From: Nitrosomonas sp. | GTDB lineage: Bacteria; Pseudomonadota; Gammaproteobacteria; Burkholderiales; Nitrosomonadaceae | DNA length: 64,000 bases | Assembly: GCA_019745325.1 (NCBI GenBank) | Contig: JAIETK010000004.1 | Span: 1 to 64,000 of the forward strand | Reading direction: 5' to 3' | Shown here: piece after piece, positions 6,210-25,770 of the stretch | Layout of the letters: each line of letters starts with the position of its first letter | Numbering within the stretch: the stretch's first letter is position 1 | The notes under the pieces: model-generated | Databases searched by the model: none | What the model was told of the DNA's origin: nothing | Seen by the model: the letters and a program-made list of their open reading frames with translations, nothing else | Translations under genes and position numbers: made by a program

Positions 6210-8219
6210 TCATGATAAGTATTTATTTCGTCTTCTAAATAAGGCCAGAGTCATTAACCCCCAGCTAAATAACCAGATCATTGCTGGATTTGGAACAGGC
6301 GATGTAAATAACGCAATATCATTACCATCACCTGCTTTATAAGTTATGAACAGATCTTGTCCAAAATTACCTACTCGGCTGCCTTCATTCAAGCCAACGA
6401 AATTGCCAATTAGATTTCCGTCAACCTGCATGAAATTAAATACTTGTCCAGCCGATAAGGTGAAATTATCCCACATGGAGACCAATAAAGAACCATGTAG
6501 CAAGTTAACATCACCCATTACGGCTAACTGATCAAATGCACCAACTCCGGTTCCGCCGATTTCAACTTCGAATTGCGCATCGCTCGTCATCGTGTAGTTA
6601 CCACTTAGAAGAGAGACAGCAGGTGATGCTCCGGGAGCATAAATGCCAGTATCATGGAAAAAATCTCCGGTGAAATTAACCACTTCAAGCCTTGAGCCAC
6701 TAAAAATGAACGTTCCATCCGTTTCTATATTTAAGTCGTGTGCTTGAAATTCCTCACCCGAAGCTTGTAGAGTCGCATGAGAATCAATGTTCACTTTGCC
6801 GGTACCGGTCAAATTGGCTCCAACATCCAACTGTCCTTCGTGAACATCGATCGTGCCGTTATTGACTACGTCCCATGAAATGGTCGATGCACCTGAACCA
6901 GTCTTGCTTAATGTAGCGCCGCTATCGTTGATCAGCAGTGGTGTGTTGGCGAAGTATGCGATTCCAAATCCCGAATTGTCTGTCAACTCTAAGGAGCTTC
7001 CCGATAGATTCTGCCAGCGTACATTTTCACCATTACTCCATACAAAATCCTTCAAGACAGCTTTGCCGGTATTTTCAATAGCAGCACCGATGTAAGAGCT
7101 ATTGGCATTAATATGATCCACGCTAAAGCTTCCGTTCAAACGCAGCGTATGGTTGCCTCGTAAATTATCCAAGCCAAGTAAACCGCCATTAACTGTGAGC
7201 GATGAATCCGCGGTTAGGGCCGCATTCAAACCGAGAAAACCGTTGTCATGCAAATTGGCTGTACCTGTTCCGGAGAATCCGGAATAAAGCCACAATTGAC
7301 TGTCATTAGCCACATCGATCGTGCCATTATTGACCATGTCCCATGAAATTCCTGATGCCCCTATACCTGTCTTATAGATAGTTGCAGTTGATTCATTAAT
7401 GATCGAGGAATTACCAGAACCACCGAAACTGCTGCCATCATCGAGATACAAAGCTCCACCGGATTGATTCTTCCAGGTTACGTTACCTGAGTAGTTATTG
7501 ATCGGTCCAGATGTATGATAATTACCTTGGTTGTTGATTTCTGCATTGCCGCTACCAAATGTCAGTGTTCCTGTCAGGGAAAAATTAGACGCGGCAGCAA
7601 TATTTAAAACGCTATGGCTGCCGGTTGATTCGGCCATTGTTAAATCACCATTTATCGATGAATTACCAATGCTATTCATTATGCCGGATGAATTTGAACC
7701 TAATACAACATTTCCGGATATATGCCCGTTATCTAACGTGACGGTAGCGGATCCGCCGGAATTTGGATAACTGGTGGTCGTAAGAGCACCTATTATTGCA
7801 TTCTGAAGGGTATAAGTAGAGTTAACAATATTTAATCCCGTGTCTATGCCGGTTCGCATAAACAGCGAGCCTGTCGAATTATAATCGCTTGATAAAACAG
7901 CAGTTTCGGAAGATCCGGCGTAACCAAGAAAAATGCCATTAAGATACCTTTCAAATACACCGAAGAATACGTCGACGTTGTGATCGGTAGATGGATGTAA
8001 AAGAATATTGGCCCAGCTGTTACCATAAAAATCAACCTGATCGCCCGATACAAAAAGGTCTCCAAGGCTATTGAGACTTGTTCTTGGTAAAGAGCCTGTC
8101 CAAAGCAAACCAGTTTCAGTTATCTCAACGTCGGGTCCGTCGTCTCCGTCGGCCCAAGAGGGAATACTTGGACTCAATAAAGAAAAGATGATTAATCCTT
8201 GAGTAATTTTTTTATTCAT
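6210..8219 (-). CDS. PEP-CTERM-type secreted beta-repeat protein
   Basis: The 669-residue protein has a signal peptide (to about SIPSWA) and long low-complexity stretches rich in G, N, S and T with recurring NNGTIDV, GTGTANL and WDMVNNGT/WDVVNNGT motifs, typical of right-handed beta-helix adhesins. The last 28 residues are a C-terminal sorting signal: VPNPA, a hydrophobic helix (MIWLFSWGLMTLALF) and RRR. This is a variant of PEP-CTERM with N in place of E in the usual VPEP. Such proteins are processed by exosortase and linked to exopolysaccharide. No exosortase gene is in the window. It is a likely extracellular matrix or surface protein of unknown binding partner. Confidence 0.8.
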   Translation of the reverse strand: MNKKITQGLIIFSLLSPSIPSWADGDDGPDVEITETGLLWTGSLPRTSLNSLGDLFVSGDQVDFYGNSWANILLHPSTDHNVDVFFGVFERYLNGIFLGYAGSSETAVLSSDYNSTGSLFMRTGIDTGLNIVNSTYTLQNAIIGALTTTSYPNSGGSATVTLDNGHISGNVVLGSNSSGIMNSIGNSSINGDLTMAESTGSHSVLNIAAASNFSLTGTLTFGSGNAEINNQGNYHTSGPINNYSGNVTWKNQSGGALYLDDGSSFGGSGNSSIINESTATIYKTGIGASGISWDMVNNGTIDVANDSQLWLYSGFSGTGTANLHDNGFLGLNAALTADSSLTVNGGLLGLDNLRGNHTLRLNGSFSVDHINANSSYIGAAIENTGKAVLKDFVWSNGENVRWQNLSGSSLELTDNSGFGIAYFANTPLLINDSGATLSKTGSGASTISWDVVNNGTIDVHEGQLDVGANLTGTGKVNIDSHATLQASGEEFQAHDLNIETDGTFIFSGSRLEVVNFTGDFFHDTGIYAPGASPAVSLLSGNYTMTSDAQFEVEIGGTGVGAFDQLAVMGDVNLLHGSLLVSMWDNFTLSAGQVFNFMQVDGNLIGNFVGLNEGSRVGNFGQDLFITYKAGDGNDIALFTSPVPNPAMIWLFSWGLMTLALFRRRNKYLS

Positions 8220-17554: not shown

Positions 17555-18127
17555 TTTGAAAACCTATTTAAAAAGATAGCCAATAAACGTAATCCGTTGC
17601 GGATGGTTAAGGAAACGCTGATTAATTCGGCGAACGAGATGACGCACGAGGCGCACGGAACGCAGCAACCGAGACATATCAACAAGATAGGCGAGGAAGC
17701 GAGTACCGTGCAACGAAGTGATTCACTCGTGCAGTCAATTAATCAGCGTTTCCCTAATCATGATGAGATCGTTGTTGTTCAGGGCCGGTCATTACGCGCC
17801 TCTGGTCGATTCATCATGTTTCGAGAGACTATGATCACGCTATGCATTATAGGAAGTATCGGTAGCCGGCAATGGCTGAATAACACTGTAAAAAGTTATC
17901 TTTTTTTAGAATGATTCGATAATGCCGATTGCTGGGGCGCGAGACGTTTTCCACTCGAAAAAAGCGGTGCGGAGTCCGGAAATGGGCGTGAAGGAAACGC
18001 GGATTAATTCGTCGGACGAGATGGAGCACGAGGCGCACGGAGCGCAGCAGCCAAAGCTTATCAGGTGAGGGAGCGAGCACCGTGCAACGAAGTGACTCGC
18101 TCGTATAGTCAATGAATCAGCATTTCC
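17555..18127. other. Gene-free region dominated by two MITE-like elements
   Basis: The gap between the HDOD gene and the end of the carboxylase gene holds copies B and C of the repeat family. The unique stretch between them (about 17755-17991) shows no supported gene or RNA. Confidence 0.7.
17610..17754. repeat. MITE-like element, copy B
   Basis: The ends AGGAAACGCTGATTAATT and AATTAATCAGCGTTTCCC are near-perfect terminal inverted repeats. The interior (GAGGCGCACGGAACGCAGCAA, then ATATCAACAAGATAGGCGAG) is shared with copies C-F. It is about 145 bp with no open frame of note. Confidence 0.85.
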
Positions 18128-18128
18128 C
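17992..18128. repeat. MITE-like element, copy C, touching the carboxylase stop codon
   Basis: This is a slightly shortened and diverged copy in the same orientation as copy B, running from AGGAAACGCGGATTAATT to CAGCATTTCCC. Its last base is part of the stop codon (18128-18130) of the minus-strand carboxylase gene, so the element lies immediately downstream of that gene. Confidence 0.8.
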
Positions 18129-21100
18129 TAACTTTCCTGCACGATCATGAGCGTTTGCCCGGCGGCGATGTAATTGCCTTGCTGGCAAAAAATCTGGCGA
18201 ATTTTTCCGCTAACGGGGGATTCGATCGCAAATTCCATTTTCATCGATTCGATGATTGCCAGCGGTTTGCCTGCTTCGATGTATTCGTTTTCCTTGACCA
18301 GTAGTTTCCAGACAGTGCCGGTCACTTGAGAACTGATAAGCTGAGCGCCATCCGGCAAATCCAGCTCGCTTTCACTGCCGGCTTCCTCCAGCACATCCTC
18401 GTTGACTGCCAGTGCTTGCGGATTTTCCGCCCAGCGTAGGCGTTCGGCTTCAAACGCGGCTTTTTGCCTGGTTTTGAAGGCTTCAATGCTCTCCGCTTGC
18501 TGTTGCAGGAAGGTGTGGTATTGCTGCAAGTTAAGCACGGTTGGTTCCGTGCGCAGCTTGAAATGACCGCTGATAAAATCCTTGCGCAATTTGAGCAATT
18601 CGCTTTCGCTGACCGGATAAAAACGGATTTGGTCGAAGAAACGCAATAACCACGGTTTGCCGTCCTTAAAGTCGGCGGTTTGGCGGTAACGGTTCCACAT
18701 TTGCACGGTGCGGCCGACGAATTGATAGCCCCCCGGGCCTTCCATGCCGTATACGCATAAATACGCGCCGCCGATGCCGACTGCATTTTCCGGCGTCCAA
18801 GTCCGCGCCGGATTGTATTTGGTAGTGACCAGCCGGTGACGCGGATCGAGCGGCGTGGCGACCGGCGCGCCCAGATACACATCGCCCAATCCCATCACCA
18901 GGTAACTGGCGGAGAATACGATGTCGCGGACTTCGTCAATATTATTCAGGCCATTGATACGGCGGATGAATTCGATATTGCTGGGACACCAGGGCGCATC
19001 GCGCCGGACCGATTGCATGTATTTGTCGATTGCCAGCCGGGTGGCGGCGTCGTCCCACGATAACGGCAGATGAATGATGCGCGACGGCACTTCCATTTCG
19101 GCAATCGCGGGTAATTGCTTTTCGGCGGCAATCAATTGTTGCAGCAGCGCATCACGCGGCAGCCGGGCCGAATCGAAATGAATCTGCAGCGAGCGGATGC
19201 CGGGCGTCAGATCGACGATGCCGTGCAGTTCACCGGCATCGATGCGTTGCTGCAGCCAGGTCATCAATGCATGCGCGCGGAAACGCAGATTCAAATCAAG
19301 TACCGGCGGGCCATATTCGATCAATAGGTATTTGTCGCCGGATTGCCGGTACGCGACTTCCAACTGATGATTGCTGGCGGCAATGCGATGCAATACCGGA
19401 TCTTCCAGTTGCGGCATGGCGGGCGGGAGCGGTATGTACTGACTGCCGCCAAGTTGCTCGATGAATCGTGCTTGTTGTTGTTCCAGCAGTTGTGCTTGTT
19501 CAATCGATACCGGATGGAAGCGGATGCTGTCACCGGGGCGGAGTTGCCCGATTTTCCAGAGTTCCGCGTGCGCCACCGTCACCGGACAAACGAAACCGCC
19601 GAGGCTGGGGCCGTCGGGGCCGAGGATGATCGGCATATCGCCGGTGAAATCGACCGCGCCGATGGCATAGGCATTGTCATGGATATTGGAAGGGTGCAAA
19701 CCGGCCTCGCCGCCGTCGGTTCGCGCCCAGCGCGGTTTCGGTCCGATCAGGCGCACGCCGGTGCGGCTGGAATTGTGGTGCACCTTCCATTCCGCAGCAA
19801 AGAATTGCTCGATATCCGCTCCGGTGAAGAAATCCGGTGCGCCGTGCGGTCCGTACAGCACCGCAATTTCCCAGCGGTGGCTGTAGTGCGGAATCGAACT
19901 GTGCGGCAGATGCTCAGTGATGACGGGTTGCGTCGCCGGCAGCGCCGGGATATGCAGCACATCCCCGGCGCGTAGCGCGCGTCCGGCGTGGCCGCCGAAT
20001 TGACCGAGCGTGAATGTGGCTTTGCTGCCGAGGTATTCCGGTACTTCAAAGCCGCCATGCACCGCTAAATAAACCCGGCTGCCGGCCTGGTGGATTTTGC
20101 CGAATTGCAGCACCGCGCCTGCTTTGATCAAATGCGCCTGCCATTGCGTCAGCGGCTCGCTGTCGAGCAGTACGTCCATCGGTGCGCCGCAAACGGCGAT
20201 GATACTGTCGCAATTAAACCGCAGTGTTGGACCGGCAATGGTGATTTCCAGTCCGGCACAACCGGGAGGGTTCTTGACCAACCGGTTAGCGAGCTGGAAA
20301 GCCAGGCTATCCATCGGCCCGGAAGGCGGTACGCCGACATTCCAGTAGCCGGTTCGTCCCGGAAAATCCTGAATGGTGGTTTGCACGCCGGGATTCAGAA
20401 CATCGATGCTATGGGTCTGATAATGAAAACCATTGAGGAACTGCGTGGTCGACTCACCGTTGCGGAAAGCCGTGCTTTGCAGGATTTGCTGGAGATAATC
20501 GAGGTTGGTTTCGATACCGTGCAACGCGGTTTGCTTCAATGCGGTCAACAGTTTGATTCTGGCGGTTTCCCGATCGGGTGCATGCACGATGATTTTCGCC
20601 AGCATCGGATCGTAAAACGCCGATATCTCGGTGCCGCGCTCAACCCAGGTCTCGACGCGCGTAGTTGCGGCAAATTCCACGGCGGTCAGCGTGCCGCTCG
20701 ACGGCTGAAAGTCCTTGGCTGGATTCTCGGCGTAAACCCGCGCCTGAATCGAAGCGCCGCTGGGCTTAATGACAAAAGAATCGAGCGGCGGCAGATCTCC
20801 TGCGGCTTGCCGTACCATCCATTCGACCAGATCGATGCCGGTGACTTCTTCGGTCACGCCGTGTTCAACCTGCAAGCGGGTATTCACTTCGAGAAAATAA
20901 AATTCGCCGCTGACGGCATCGACAATGAATTCCACCGTGCCGGCGGATTGATAGCGTACCGCCTTGCCGAGGCGCACTGCCGTTTCCAGTAATGCCTGAC
21001 GCAGTTGCGGAGCCAAATTGGGTGCGGGTGTTTCCTCGATAACTTTCTGATTGCGCCGCTGCATCGAACAATCGCGCTCGCCTAATGCGACGACTTGCCC

Positions 21101-21751
21101 CCGGCCGTCTCCGAAAATCTGTACTTCGATATGCCTTGCGCGGTCGACGTATTTCTCCAGAAACAAACCGGCATCCTTGAAATTGTTTTGCGCTAACGTT
21201 TTGACCGCTTCATAAGCGCCGCTCAATTCATCCGCATTCCAGCACAGGCGCATGCCGATGCCGCCGCCGCCCGCCGTGCTTTTCAGCATCACCGGGTAAC
21301 CGATATGCTTCGCCTGGTGCAACGCTTCGTCCAAATTGTCCAGCAAACCGGTGCCCGGCAACAGCGGTACCTGGTTTTCCATTGCCAGCGCCCGAGCGGT
21401 GTGTTTCAGACCGAAATCGCGCATTTGCTGCGGCGCCGGACCAATGAAGCGAATTCCCTGCATTTCGCAGTGTTCGGCAAAATCCGCTTTCTCGCTCAAA
21501 AAACCGTAACCGGGATGAATGGCTTCGGCACCGGTTCGTTGCGCGATTTCCAGGATTTTACCGGTATTCAGATAACTTTCGGCGGCAAGGCCGTCGCCGA
21601 CGCAATAGGCTTCATCGGCGGCAGCAACATGCTGCGACAACGCGTCGGCTTCGGTGTACACCGCGACACTGGTTACTTTCAACCGGCGCAGTGTGCGGAT
21701 AATACGGCACGCGATCGCGCCGCGATTGGCGATCAGTACTTTGTTAAACAT
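18128..21751 (-). CDS. Urea/guanidine carboxylase, probably guanidine carboxylase
   Basis: The 1207-residue biotin enzyme has, in order, a biotin carboxylase (1-450, ATP-grasp with KSTAGGGGIGMR and EVNTRLQVEHGVTEE), a KipA/KipI-like carboxyltransferase (about 460-1100, with NVGVPPSGPMDSLAF, YNPARTWTPENAVGIGG and YGMEGPGGYQFVGRT) and a biotin carrier with IESMKMEF, biotinyl lysine 1171. This family carboxylates urea to allophanate or guanidine to carboxyguanidine. The ykkC-type guanidine-I riboswitch at the head of the operon and the two adjacent Cgd-type genes argue for guanidine. It is separated from the upstream gene by two tandem repeat elements. The allophanate hydrolase needed to finish the pathway is not in the window. 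Confidence 0.92.
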   Translation of the reverse strand: MFNKVLIANRGAIACRIIRTLRRLKVTSVAVYTEADALSQHVAAADEAYCVGDGLAAESYLNTGKILEIAQRTGAEAIHPGYGFLSEKADFAEHCEMQGIRFIGPAPQQMRDFGLKHTARALAMENQVPLLPGTGLLDNLDEALHQAKHIGYPVMLKSTAGGGGIGMRLCWNADELSGAYEAVKTLAQNNFKDAGLFLEKYVDRARHIEVQIFGDGRGQVVALGERDCSMQRRNQKVIEETPAPNLAPQLRQALLETAVRLGKAVRYQSAGTVEFIVDAVSGEFYFLEVNTRLQVEHGVTEEVTGIDLVEWMVRQAAGDLPPLDSFVIKPSGASIQARVYAENPAKDFQPSSGTLTAVEFAATTRVETWVERGTEISAFYDPMLAKIIVHAPDRETARIKLLTALKQTALHGIETNLDYLQQILQSTAFRNGESTTQFLNGFHYQTHSIDVLNPGVQTTIQDFPGRTGYWNVGVPPSGPMDSLAFQLANRLVKNPPGCAGLEITIAGPTLRFNCDSIIAVCGAPMDVLLDSEPLTQWQAHLIKAGAVLQFGKIHQAGSRVYLAVHGGFEVPEYLGSKATFTLGQFGGHAGRALRAGDVLHIPALPATQPVITEHLPHSSIPHYSHRWEIAVLYGPHGAPDFFTGADIEQFFAAEWKVHHNSSRTGVRLIGPKPRWARTDGGEAGLHPSNIHDNAYAIGAVDFTGDMPIILGPDGPSLGGFVCPVTVAHAELWKIGQLRPGDSIRFHPVSIEQAQLLEQQQARFIEQLGGSQYIPLPPAMPQLEDPVLHRIAASNHQLEVAYRQSGDKYLLIEYGPPVLDLNLRFRAHALMTWLQQRIDAGELHGIVDLTPGIRSLQIHFDSARLPRDALLQQLIAAEKQLPAIAEMEVPSRIIHLPLSWDDAATRLAIDKYMQSVRRDAPWCPSNIEFIRRINGLNNIDEVRDIVFSASYLVMGLGDVYLGAPVATPLDPRHRLVTTKYNPARTWTPENAVGIGGAYLCVYGMEGPGGYQFVGRTVQMWNRYRQTADFKDGKPWLLRFFDQIRFYPVSESELLKLRKDFISGHFKLRTEPTVLNLQQYHTFLQQQAESIEAFKTRQKAAFEAERLRWAENPQALAVNEDVLEEAGSESELDLPDGAQLISSQVTGTVWKLLVKENEYIEAGKPLAIIESMKMEFAIESPVSGKIRQIFCQQGNYIAAGQTLMIVQES

Positions 21752-21769
21752 ATTTGTTCCTCCGTTAGA

Positions 21770-21914
21770 GGGAAACGCTGATTAATTGACTGCACGAGCG
21801 AATCACTTCGTTGCGCGGTACTCGCATCCTCGCCTATCTTGTTGATATGTCTCGGTTGCTGCGTTCCGTGCGCCTCGTGCTTCCTCTCGTTCGCCGAATT
21901 AATCAGCATTTCCT
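21770..21914. repeat. MITE-like element, copy D
   Basis: The ends GGGAAACGCTGATTAATT and AATTAATCAGCATTTCC flank about 145 bp in the orientation opposite to copies B and C. It lies inside the guanidine operon, directly before the carboxylase start at 21751, and is followed within 4 bases by copy E. Confidence 0.85.
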
Positions 21915-21917
21915 TAG

Positions 21918-22062
21918 GGGAAACGCCGACTAATTGACTGCACGAGCGAATCACTTCGTTGCGCGGTGCTTGCGTCCTTGCTTATCTTGTTGATATGTCT
22001 CGGTTGCTGTGTTCCGTGCGCCTCGTGCTTCATCTCGTTCACCGGATTAATCAGCATTTCCT
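21918..22062. repeat. MITE-like element, copy E, tandem with copy D
   Basis: It has the same orientation and interior as copy D. Its ends are slightly diverged (GGGAAACGCCGACTAATT and GATTAATCAGCATTTCC). It ends about 7 bases before the stop codon of the deiminase subunit gene at 22070. D and E together form a head-to-tail pair. Confidence 0.85.
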
Positions 22063-22069
22063 CAGCGAG

Positions 22070-22729
22070 TTAATCCCAGATCAGTAAGCGGATCGGCGTC
22101 GGGTTATAGGCATTGCACGGATTGTTCAGTTGCGGGCAATTCGAGATCAATACCACCACATCCATTTCAGCGCGCATTTCGACGAATTTTCCAGGAGCGG
22201 AAACACCATCGGCAAATTCCAGACCGCCGGTCTCGGTGACCGGTACATTCATGAAGAAATTGATGTTGCTCGGCAGGTCACGCTTGCTCATGTCGAGTTG
22301 CTGGCACAACGGATGATGCGCCAAGGCATGCAAAAAATTATCGCGGCAACTGTGCATTGGGAATTTTTCCAATGCATAGCGCACGGTGTTGCTCTCCGCG
22401 GCGCATGCGCCGCCCAAGGTATCGTGGCGGCCGCAGGTGTCGGCGGTGATGATAAGCATGACGTTGCCGAGATTGGAGTACAGCTTGCTGCCCGTGGTCA
22501 GGTACAAATGATTCTGGCGGGAAATGGTATCGGTTGCGCTGTAACGTTCTTGCGTATCGTGCGCGTTGTAGAACAGGGTGTCGACCGCTTGATTGCCCTC
22601 CAGATCGACGATACGGAATGTTTGCCCTTGTTTGATGAGGTGCACCCAAGGTTCCCCGGCGGGGCAAATTGCGTTGACGGCAGCTTGAGCCGGATCGAAG
22701 TGATTGACAAGTAAGTTTGCGGTATTCAT
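22070..22729 (-). CDS. Carboxyguanidine deiminase subunit (urea carboxylase-associated protein)
   Basis: The 219-residue protein belongs to the DUF1989/urea carboxylase-associated family ([71 protein letters not shown]). Members act as a two-subunit carboxyguanidine deiminase (CgdA/CgdB) that turns carboxyguanidine into allophanate and ammonia. Conserved C, H and D residues such as TCGRHDT are visible. The start at 22729 (MNTANLL) overlaps the upstream stop in an ATGA, so translation is coupled. An upstream in-frame reading up to 22798 lies within the neighbour gene and is not used. Which subunit is A or B is not decided here. Confidence 0.87.
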
Positions 22730-23448
22730 AGCGTACCCTCCCCATAAAAATTTTGAGCATTCTGTAATGCGCGGATATTTTCGTCGATATGCAAACATTC
22801 CTTGATGGCATCCGGCGGCGTATTGAAAACCTCCAGCGAGATCGCGCCGGGCTGATAAGTTTTTTTAGTGTCGAGCGGATGCGGTGCAGCCGACAGCACC
22901 ACCAGCGTGTTCATGACGAAACTCAAGTCGATATAGTCGCCCGCTTTGCTATGGCCGGGGTGATAGGTCAATTCACCAAAGGCATCGGAAGTGACTTTGC
23001 TGAAGAAATTGATATTGGCGACTACATCGCGCATGTCCAGTCCCCACTTGCCCAGCTCGATCAACATGCCGCTCAGGCCGCTGCGGTGCATTTGATTGCG
23101 ATGTTCCTGGTAGCGCGCTTCGCCGTATTTCCGCCGGATTAATGCATCGTCGCTCAAGCCACAGACGGTGTCGTGCCAGCCGGTGGTATCGGCGGTGATG
23201 CAGCAAAAAATCCGGCCCATATCGGAGTGGCAGGCATGACCTTTGGTCAGACGGAAGGTGTGCTGCGACTTCAAGGTGTCGGCCATGTTATAGCGCTCCA
23301 GTTTTTCTTCCTGATTGAACAGCAGAACCGCTGCATTCGCGCCGCCGTCGACATCGGTCAGACGCAATGTCGTGCCGCGGCGGATGATGCCGGACCAATG
23401 GCAGCCGCCTGGAATGGTTTGTTTCCAGATGATGGTGTGCTGATTCAT
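22726..23448 (-). CDS. Carboxyguanidine deiminase subunit (second urea carboxylase-associated protein)
   Basis: The 240-residue protein is paralogous to its downstream neighbour ([69 protein letters not shown]). The family's role as a subunit of carboxyguanidine deiminase is established for homologues; here it is inferred from the family and the operon. It overlaps the permease stop and the next start by 4 bases each, so the three genes are tightly coupled. Confidence 0.87.
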
Positions 23449-24878
23449 AACCGGCTCCTTAAAAGTTTTTTAAATAATAGATAGATGGTTGTAATAGCCA
23501 GAATGCTGCCGAGCACCAGCGGTGTCGCCCAAAGCTGCCACCACGGCGCATCGGCGGAAATGGCATAGGGGCGCGGCCAGGCGATGTTGATCAATTCAAA
23601 CAAAGCCCAGATAAACGCCAAGGTATTGATGAGTAATCCCCATTTGCCCAGTTTCAGTTGACCCAATGCCGGATTCCAGCGGCCGGATAAACGCGCGAAC
23701 AGCGCAATCCCGGTGGTAAAGGCGAACATCGCGTAAAGACCGCCGGTACCGAAGGCGATGATGGTCGCCACCGCATCGTCGTTGAGCCCGAAAATCAAAC
23801 CGCAACCGGCTAACAGAACGGTAAATAGCACGGCATTCCGGGGTGTTTGACTGGCGGTGACCCGGCTTAAAGCTGCCGGCATGTTGCCCTCCCGCGCCAT
23901 CGAGAACATGATGCGCGAGGTATATTTGACGACCGATGCGCCGCACGCGAGAAACGCGACCATCACGATCGCCAGAAATGGCTTCTCGATCCAGCCGCCA
24001 AAGTGGTTGGCGACCAACGGTGTAATCGGATCGGCGGTGGCGCTGCTGTGAATGAGTGTTTCGTGATCGAAAGCCAGTATCAGGGAAGCTGAATTGAATA
24101 CCACCACGGTACCGACGGTGCACAATGAGAAAAAGATCGCGCGAGGGACCGCCCGTTTCGGTTCGTGCGTTTCTTCCGCAGTCGTCGAGCACGCATCGAA
24201 GCCGATGAACGCCCATCCGGCAATGGCGAGCGCGGCCAGAAATGCGGCAGTTTGGCTCGGCGCGGTGCCGGTACCTAAGTGCTGGAACAGTTCGGTGAGC
24301 GAGTGCTGGCGGAAAAACAGAAACAGCAGGATGGCGATTCCGAACGAACCAACGATTTCGGCATAAACACCGAGTTTGATGGTGAGCTTGAAAACGTTGA
24401 CATGCACCAGATTCAGCGCCGTGCATAGCGCCAGGAAAACGACTGCCCACAGGACTTTTTCCATGCCGCTGTCACCGGAGGATCCAAAAAATCCGGCAAA
24501 CCAGATACCGCCGGCGTACGCCGTGGTGGTCAGCATGGCAATGGTCGAGCTGATGTAGATGACACCGGCATAGTGTCCGGCCGTGCTGCCGTAAAACTGC
24601 CGCGCCCATTTGTAAGCGCCGCCGGCAATCGGGAATTGCGACGACAGTTCGGCGTAAACCGTTGCCACCAGCAGTTGCATCAACAGGCAAATGACCAGGG
24701 CTGCGAACCAGCCGCCGCCGGTTACGGCCGTTTGCACACCGATAATCGCATAAAGCCCGACAATCGGCGATACCACTGCAAAACCCAGCGTAAAGCTGTG
24801 CCAGATGGTCATGCTGGCGCGCAGCGATTGTGTTTCCTGGGCGGTTGGCGGATTAACTGATTTTGATACTTCCGACAT
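23445..24878 (-). CDS. APC-family permease of the guanidine operon
   Basis: The 477-residue integral membrane protein has about 12 membrane segments and the APC amino-acid/polyamine/organocation pattern (SFTLGFAVVSPIVGLYAIIG near the front, FIGFDACSTTAEETHEPKRAVPRAI in the middle). It is the first gene after the guanidine-I riboswitch and is coupled to the deiminase genes, so uptake of guanidine or a related cationic nitrogen compound is the likely job; export cannot be excluded. GGAGG lies 7-11 bases upstream of the ATG at 24878. Confidence 0.85.
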   Translation of the reverse strand: MSEVSKSVNPPTAQETQSLRASMTIWHSFTLGFAVVSPIVGLYAIIGVQTAVTGGGWFAALVICLLMQLLVATVYAELSSQFPIAGGAYKWARQFYGSTAGHYAGVIYISSTIAMLTTTAYAGGIWFAGFFGSSGDSGMEKVLWAVVFLALCTALNLVHVNVFKLTIKLGVYAEIVGSFGIAILLFLFFRQHSLTELFQHLGTGTAPSQTAAFLAALAIAGWAFIGFDACSTTAEETHEPKRAVPRAIFFSLCTVGTVVVFNSASLILAFDHETLIHSSATADPITPLVANHFGGWIEKPFLAIVMVAFLACGASVVKYTSRIMFSMAREGNMPAALSRVTASQTPRNAVLFTVLLAGCGLIFGLNDDAVATIIAFGTGGLYAMFAFTTGIALFARLSGRWNPALGQLKLGKWGLLINTLAFIWALFELINIAWPRPYAISADAPWWQLWATPLVLGSILAITTIYLLFKKLLRSRL

Positions 24879-24938
24879 AACGAACCTCCATTTTCAGAAT
24901 ATTACCGAAAGACCCATGTATCAACGATACACGATTTG

Positions 24939-25036
24939 ATCTCCCGGGCTTTTATCCCTCCGTGGAGCCTCGTTTTAAGAGACCGGAAACTCTCGGACCT
25001 GGCGTCTTAATTACTTTGACCGGAACCCTAGTTTCC
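24939..25036 (-). promoter_or_regulatory. Guanidine-I (ykkC) riboswitch
   Basis: Read on the minus strand the leader contains the diagnostic conserved blocks of the ykkC guanidine-I aptamer in order: ACTAGGGTTCCGG (25032-25020), CAGGTCCGAGAG, CACGGAGGGATAAAA and GCCCGGGAGAT (ending at 24939). It ends about 60 bases upstream of the permease start. A small hairpin TGTATC-AAC-GATACA (24917-24931) lies between, but no strong terminator with a T-run, so control may act at translation or through a less obvious structure. Guanidine binding turns such switches on. Confidence 0.93.
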
Positions 25037-25224
25037 ATGCAAATCATCGCTTTATTACATGCCATTCGAATGCTGGCAAATATGAAAGCGGATTCAGGCC
25101 GGATTTTAGGGATGCTTTTGGAAAAAAGCAATGGGAAATGGAAGGTTGTTGCAAAAAAATCAGGAGAATCGTTCAAATTCCGCCTGTATTCAGCCACCAA
25201 TACTGTTTGTGTTTGCAAAGCGCG

Positions 25225-25770
25225 TCAATCAAAACACCGGTCGATGGTTTCGGCTTTATGCAAACGTTGCGGCAGTGAAGCATCCGGGGTTGGCGCATAG
25301 GAATCCGGCGGGTAGTCATGCAACAGATTGGCGTTGCTGCGAATTTCGATGCTGGATCGGATTGCTTGACCGGTACTCGTATCTTTGATGATCAAAATCC
25401 AATTGCCATTGCCGTGCGTGATCGGTTGACCGGTATCCCGCGAAGAGCCGGTGCTGTGAATCTCGGTAATGTAATAAGTTTTTGCGGCTTCGTCGTGAAA
25501 GTGCGGATATCCATTGACTTGCATGGATTCGTGATAAATGAAATAAGTGTTGAGATCGCGCACGGTTTGGCGATGCCATTCCGGCAGGGGAAAGCTATCT
25601 TTACTTTTCAGGCATTCGGCAATCGTCAAATAATGTTCGCCGCTGATGTGGCTGTAAATAACGTTCTGAGCCAGCAGCGCTTCACGGGTGGGTGTTGCGA
25701 CGCAGGCGGTTAATAGGCCGATGATTATCAGAAACAGCGTGGTTGTGATTTTTTGTAAAGAAGTGTTCAT
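25225..25770 (-). CDS. Predicted lipoprotein, unknown
   Basis: The 181-residue protein has a lipoprotein signal peptide with lipobox LLTAC (Cys23). The mature part shows no recognised domain. It contains RDLNTYFIYHESMQVNGYPHFHDEAAKTYYITEIH and ends in an acidic tail with a lone cysteine. It stands alone between the riboswitch leader and the toxin-antitoxin region. Confidence 0.7.
   Translation of the reverse strand: MNTSLQKITTTLFLIIIGLLTACVATPTREALLAQNVIYSHISGEHYLTIAECLKSKDSFPLPEWHRQTVRDLNTYFIYHESMQVNGYPHFHDEAAKTYYITEIHSTGSSRDTGQPITHGNGNWILIIKDTSTGQAIRSSIEIRSNANLLHDYPPDSYAPTPDASLPQRLHKAETIDRCFD

Follow-up and report, generated by a model that had tools for sequence, protein, structure and literature searches.

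The 64,000-nucleotide (nt) stretch of Nitrosomonas sp. DNA analysed here (assembly GCA_019745325.1, contig JAIETK010000004.1, positions 1 to 64,000; hereafter the window) carries a putative guanidine-degradation operon, in which a guanidine-I riboswitch heads genes for a permease, two deiminase subunits and a carboxylase, and for which no allophanate hydrolase was found in the operon or elsewhere in the genome. The source is a draft assembly of 33 contigs and 3.02 Mb with an estimated completeness of 99.98%. An initial annotation made from the letters alone had taken it for a Nitrosomonas-like ammonia oxidiser, and this is borne out by a protein of the AMO family PF02461 (395 bits) and by the carboxylase, whose nearest counterparts among named genomes are from Nitrosomonas. 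The features of the locus, in the direction of transcription, are as follows.

Positions 24939-25042, minus strand: Guanidine-I (ykkC) riboswitch aptamer, full-length match to RF00442 (86.2 bits).
Positions 24879-24967, minus strand: predicted expression platform, from the folding of this leader and of those of relatives (a prediction only).
Positions 23445-24878, minus strand: APC-family permease, probable guanidine importer (PF13520, 136.5 bits).
Positions 22726-23448, minus strand: CgdA-type carboxyguanidine deiminase subunit, UAAP1 (TIGR03425, 322.6 bits, cut-off 205.95; PF09347).
Positions 22070-22729, minus strand: CgdB-type carboxyguanidine deiminase subunit, UAAP2, 219 residues (TIGR03424, 343.5 bits, cut-off 284.7; PF09347).
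Positions 21769-22065, no strand assigned: two tandem copies of a 148-nt repeat resembling a miniature inverted-repeat transposable element (MITE), in the gap between cgdB and the carboxylase gene (sequence comparison).
Positions 18128-21751, minus strand: putative guanidine carboxylase with biotin carboxylase, carboxyltransferase and biotin carrier domains, 1207 residues (TIGR02712, 1944.2 bits, cut-off 1303.85).
Positions 17606-18131, no strand assigned: stretch with two more, inverted copies of the repeat, at the position of the allophanate hydrolase gene in relatives; no hydrolase remnant.

On the minus strand, the leader shows all four of the ykkC sequence blocks that the initial annotation had read there, in the stated order. 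The covariance-model search that it had called for at 24939-25036, carried out here with cmscan against Rfam, returns the RF00442 match at 24939-25042(-) at 86.2 bits against a gathering score of 63 (E 5.1e-14, model positions 1-107 of 107). This is the sole Rfam match at the gathering threshold in the window and the only Guanidine-I match in the whole genome.

The sequence beyond the aptamer's CCCGGGAGA mostly folds into a hairpin among 23 distinct leader tails, and in the Nitrosomonadaceae tails, those of loci L028 and L031 excepted, a downstream TCTCGG, TCTTTCGG or CTTGG can be seen by eye to be capable of pairing with CCCGGGAGA. For the window's leader, folding predicts that CCCGGGAGA (24948-24940) pairs with TCTTTCGG (24912-24905) across a hairpin and that CTCCA (24967-24963) pairs with TGGAG (24890-24886), the ribosome-binding stretch of the permease gene. 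The latter stretch is predicted to be 1% free in the full fold, and 62% free when the tail is folded by itself, a fold that was taken as a stand-in for the ligand-bound state. Access to the ribosome site was tried for 12 leaders, two of which had no recognised site; in eight of the ten that were scored (the window and G043, a second genome, being one species) the predicted fold pairs the ribosome-binding stretch with a CTCC stretch of the aptamer. An intrinsic terminator was considered as the expression platform and rejected, since the seven terminator-like sites in 21700-25300 compare with 4.7 (standard deviation 2.2) in shuffled sequences, and none lies in the leader between aptamer and permease. 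The lack of such a site there, together with the folding of the ribosome site, favours translational control in the species of the window.

Downstream of the riboswitch, the initial annotation's reading of a permease and two Cgd-type deiminase genes is upheld by the PF13520 match of the former and by the TIGR03425 and TIGR03424 matches of the latter. Both proteins expected of CgdAB, the DUF1989 subunits of UAAP1 and UAAP2 type, are thus encoded and score above curated cut-offs, so that they can be assigned by type to carboxyguanidine deiminase; we take UAAP1 to be CgdA and UAAP2 to be CgdB. The solved relatives found for these subunits bear the names DUF1989 protein and trimethylamine N-oxide demethylase. 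The start of UAAP2 was placed at 22729 because of its ATGA overlap with UAAP1, and the TIGR03424 search was run without the first residue. Coupling by ATGA overlaps, which had been proposed for the genes of the operon in general, holds at the permease/UAAP1 and UAAP1/UAAP2 junctions and fails for the carboxylase gene, which lies outside the interval originally marked (22070-25040), 318 nt from cgdB, and has a ribosome site of its own, GGAGG, immediately 5' of its ATG. The two tandem repeat copies lie in this gap. In 69 of the 81 loci compared (the named ones, numbering 80, and that of G043) the two genes were found in line, with a median gap of 65 nt; G043 has one repeat copy there. The repeat carries terminal inverted repeats and is present in at least 41 copies in the genome, a lower bound because 40 of 120 candidates were scored. 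The four copies flanking the carboxylase gene form inverted pairs, which raised the idea of an invertible cassette; in view of the genome-wide copy number no special role was kept for them.

The carboxylase is full length, and has its biotin motif, MKME, at residue 1170. In an alignment to the urea amidolyase chains of Kluyveromyces lactis, on which alignment its residue numbers were counted, its D701 corresponds to N1330 and its D957 to D1584. Aspartate at the equivalents of both positions is the published criterion for a guanidine carboxylase (PMC11410670), and the window's enzyme has both. In a single alignment, so do all 80 carboxylases from the named loci, among which there are some partial genes. 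The comparison of substrate residues proposed in the initial annotation therefore yields the guanidine type and not the asparagine of the urea type. Its preference for guanidine over urea as the substrate is supported by these residues, by the class of the riboswitch and by the UAAP1 and UAAP2 matches.

In the published pathway the last step is taken by allophanate hydrolase, and this enzyme was not found. A search of the whole genome for allophanate hydrolase (TIGR02713, cut-off 511.05) yields only GatA, at 203.5 bits, and a lone C-terminal domain, at 92 bits, and a search for the amidase family PF01425 yields only GatA, which adjoins GatB. With five allophanate hydrolases as tblastn queries, 17606-18131 gives nothing at E<=1 and hence no gene remnant; of the other matches in the window, the one at E 0.005 falls within the carboxylase gene and the weaker two, at E 0.57-0.68, fall elsewhere. 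On these searches, the idea of a hydrolase hidden at another place was rejected. The sequence runs unbroken from the carboxylase gene through the repeats to a gene for an HDOD-domain protein. A complete guanidine carboxylase pathway, in the sense of one with an encoded TIGR02713 hydrolase, is therefore absent from this genome, and no hydrolase was found in the same-species genome G043 (2 contigs, 100% complete) or in G041, the genome of locus L056, either. The route from guanidine to ammonia suggested by the initial annotation stands in so far as the encoded steps would give one ammonia per guanidine; the enzyme that would free the other two was not found anywhere in the genome, and the remaining two nitrogens would have to leave by way of urea and urease, by an unrecognised enzyme, or not at all.

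This absence recurs in the family. Among 125 Nitrosomonadaceae genomes surveyed, the carboxylase scores above its cut-off in 105 and the hydrolase in 51. The joint tabulation took in those genomes whose carboxylase match reaches E<=1e-300, 106 in all; of these, 48 have the hydrolase, 56 lack it and two have it partial or split; for the 82 near-complete genomes among these (at least 95% complete, at most 5% contaminated) the numbers are 42, 39 and one split. Sixty carboxylases from the 106 genomes, 56 of them labelled, were placed on a tree by a quick method with SH-aLRT support only, the split-gene genome G012 being scored as hydrolase-bearing. This tree calls for at least eight changes of hydrolase state, and branches with good support make five of these unavoidable. 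Within a clade of 26 members, 19 of them hydrolase-bearing, the window groups with G043 and L056 in a single clade that lacks the hydrolase. For the four operon genes the dN/dS ratio is 0.03-0.17 against G043 and 0.05-0.09 against L056, and as both of these are likewise hydrolase-free, the low values indicate that the truncated operon is maintained by purifying selection. Clustering of the gene neighbourhoods was used to look for a replacement gene common to hydrolase-free operons; a single candidate, presumably thiopurine methyltransferase-like, occurs in six of 18 hydrolase-free loci and one other, has no evident link to the pathway and was set aside.

Two further kinds of locus were met in this survey. 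Loci L076, L080, L091 and L093 have a guanidine-I-like leader, a permease and a guanidine-type carboxylase, with no match to CgdA, CgdB or the hydrolase in the locus stretch (Cgd genes elsewhere in these genomes were not sought), and their genomes (G121, G122, G118 and G117, respectively) have no hydrolase above the cut-off; as far as the locus stretch shows, the operon is shorter still in these four. In locus L165, a match of 30 residues to the end of the hydrolase C-terminal domain (G106:C146:1931-2020, minus strand) lies just downstream of the carboxylase gene and is possibly the remnant of a lost hydrolase gene.

According to PMC3944691, allophanate that escapes its hydrolase loses CO2 spontaneously and becomes urea. 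The urease gamma, beta and alpha subunits, UreG and a urea transporter all score above cut-offs in the window's genome; for a neighbouring protein of 229 residues, the search at E 1e-20 returned no model (no search was made for other accessory genes). Given these two circumstances, the passage of guanidine to ammonia by way of urea is the simplest reading of the locus, and we consider it rather probable that this Nitrosomonas has an operon, induced by guanidine, through which guanidine is taken up and partly broken down, urease completing the process. Binding of guanidine would free the ribosome-binding site of the permease gene, the riboswitch acting as a translational on-switch, and the permease would import guanidine. 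The carboxylase would convert it to carboxyguanidine at the expense of ATP and bicarbonate, and CgdAB would free one ammonia and leave allophanate. The latter might lose CO2, chemically or aided by some protein, to give urea, from which urease could free the other two ammonia for oxidation.

Several observations weigh against this reading. The analysis rests on sequence evidence throughout, and that allophanate decarboxylates fast enough in the cell is an assumption. The best NCBIfam model of the permease, TIGR03428 ("permease, urea carboxylase system"), scores 150.5 bits, far under its cut-off of 740.45. The tail folded alone does not free the ribosome-binding stretch in three of the ten scored leaders (L079, L088 and L140), and a translational switch is thus weaker, and less firmly favoured, in the relatives. 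Part of the literature also points to a hydrolase in such organisms: Nitrosomonas ureae Nm10, Nitrosomonas communis Nm2 and strain Is79 are each reported to have a putative allophanate hydrolase, and PMC11135946 states that atzF is present in almost all Proteobacteria, the genomes of that paper included. Finally, urease is found in 30 of the 42 near-complete genomes with the hydrolase vs 22 of the 39 without it, which leaves 17 with neither. As a general rule the idea that urease strictly substitutes for the hydrolase was consequently dropped, and it was kept for this genome. In these 17, guanidine may simply be detoxified, urea may be excreted, or an unrecognised enzyme may be at work.

Detoxification might indeed be the main purpose of the operon in the window as well: allophanate or urea would be excreted, one ammonia would be gained and loss of the hydrolase would be cheap. 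Such an explanation fits the repeated changes of hydrolase state on the carboxylase tree, the 17 of 82 genomes just mentioned, and the reports that 1 mM guanidine inhibits Nitrosomonas europaea and that none of five tested ammonia-oxidising bacteria (AOB) used guanidine as sole substrate, but all five of these carry the hydrolase (PMC11410670). We judge it unlikely, if worth serious attention, because the riboswitch precedes a permease of the predicted guanidine-import type and not an exporter, carboxylation costs ATP, and this genome has kept its urease and urea transporter.

An unrecognised enzyme might alternatively replace the hydrolase, and one candidate for an allophanate decarboxylase is encoded on contig 10 of the same genome.

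Locus L137, positions 6448-6966, minus strand: stand-alone AH_C-domain protein (PF21986, 123 bits).

This protein is present, complete or almost so, in 15 of the 125 family genomes, the window's among them; every one of these has a carboxylase match, and in none does a hydrolase exceed the cut-off. This distribution may just follow lineage, however, and the protein is lacking in the same-species genome G043; its gene has varied positions in the 14 loci compared, none of them beside guanidine genes there, and lone partial pieces occur in G040, G066 and G068 but also in the hydrolase-bearing G059. The family is moreover widespread, with relatives in cyanobacteria, and in a control search the domain turned up in E. 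coli too, all of which makes such a replacement improbable. One neighbour of the stand-alone gene encodes chorismate synthase. The idea that the protein is a remnant of the hydrolase was rejected, as its relatives stand alone in many organisms and its loci are varied. That a hydrolase gene exists and is merely missing from the 33-contig assembly, the operon then belonging to an ordinary complete pathway, is very improbable, for although the genome is a draft and the expected site is bounded by high-copy repeats, the window reads unbroken through that site, the estimated completeness is 99.98%, and neither the 2-contig genome G043 nor G041 has the gene.

Some hydrolase-free relatives have a second carboxylase-like gene. 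In 13 of the 125 family genomes an extra protein of ~790 residues matches only the carboxyltransferase and biotin-carrier part of the carboxylase (E<=1e-300) and has no biotin carboxylase domain; examples of this paralogue (CT-BCCP) are L139:2329-4716(-), L140:11961-14282(-) and those in L157-L166, and the same search did not find it in the window's genome. None of the 13 genomes has a hydrolase above the cut-off. In genus g3 the paralogue is present in all six hydrolase-free carboxylase genomes and in none of the 16 with the hydrolase, and six of the 17 near-complete genomes that lack both hydrolase and urease carry it. Twelve copies from 12 genomes form one clade (the copy of G015 was left out of the tree), and all 12 aligned copies keep the biotin motif and both aspartates and have HDV instead of HDN in the loop that surrounds the first of the two. 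The paralogue gene directly follows cgdB in L139 and L140. The former locus, from genome G016, has two divergent guanidine-I riboswitches, one before permease, cgdA, cgdB and paralogue and the other before the carboxylase gene. In the latter, genes for a radical SAM/BATS protein, a class I/II aminotransferase, an alpha/beta hydrolase and a methyltransferase (L140:7793-11761, plus strand) lie between paralogue and carboxylase; we infer that they are the biotin synthesis genes bioB, bioF, bioH and bioC, and the two flanking enzymes both need biotin.

The CT-BCCP paralogue is possibly a transcarboxylase. This leads to a wider proposal, which we regard as doubtful: the Nitrosomonadaceae might repeatedly have dropped the hydrolase and run an open-ended pathway in which the carboxyl group is a removable handle, allophanate goes to urea, and urease or excretion finishes the process; and in some hydrolase-free lineages, that of the window not among them, the in-operon paralogue could move the carboxyl group from allophanate to the next guanidine, for an ATP-free turnover to urea and ammonia.

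Guanidine degradation as such, the proposal of the initial annotation, is already known in kind for this guild. According to the 2024 Nature paper PMC11410670, 135 of 145 betaproteobacterial AOB genomes carry genes for guanidine degradation, of the carboxylase type only and mostly with an APC permease, and Nitrosospira multiformis has a riboswitch-controlled locus of this kind; of the five AOB strains tested, which have the whole gene set including the hydrolase, three partly degraded guanidine with ammonium present. The literature searched yielded no description of hydrolase loss from the guanidine operons of ammonia oxidisers, and the supplementary tables of that paper could already list the gap. 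If about half of the carboxylase genomes (39 of 82) do stop at allophanate, their ammonia yield would differ from the standard three per guanidine and would hinge on urease or on some step that still awaits description, and labelled urea would be predicted as an intermediate.

In its riboswitch, APC permease, deiminase, carboxylase with the same two aspartates and urease elsewhere in the genome, the system of the window resembles the betaproteobacterial AOB pathway as described for N. multiformis (PMC11410670), from which it differs by the lack of a hydrolase in operon or genome and by the repeats between cgdB and the carboxylase gene. The operons described for enterobacteria (PMC12186494) and Pseudomonas syringae (PMC11410670) likewise place carboxylase and deiminase under a guanidine riboswitch, but they use ABC importers, and the enterobacterial ones include allophanate hydrolase. 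Urea carboxylase and urea amidolyase have the same architecture as the window's enzyme, for which the NCBIfam model name is still urea carboxylase; unlike urea amidolyase, the latter has aspartate and not asparagine at the position of K. lactis residue 1330, and is accompanied by the riboswitch and CgdAB. The guanidinase (GdmH) route of Nitrospira inopinata (PMC11410670) shares the riboswitch and the APC permease and, if the present reading holds, would also share the end of the pathway through urea and urease; as reported there, GdmH makes urea in one ATP-free step, whereas the route predicted for the window puts carboxylase and deiminase first.

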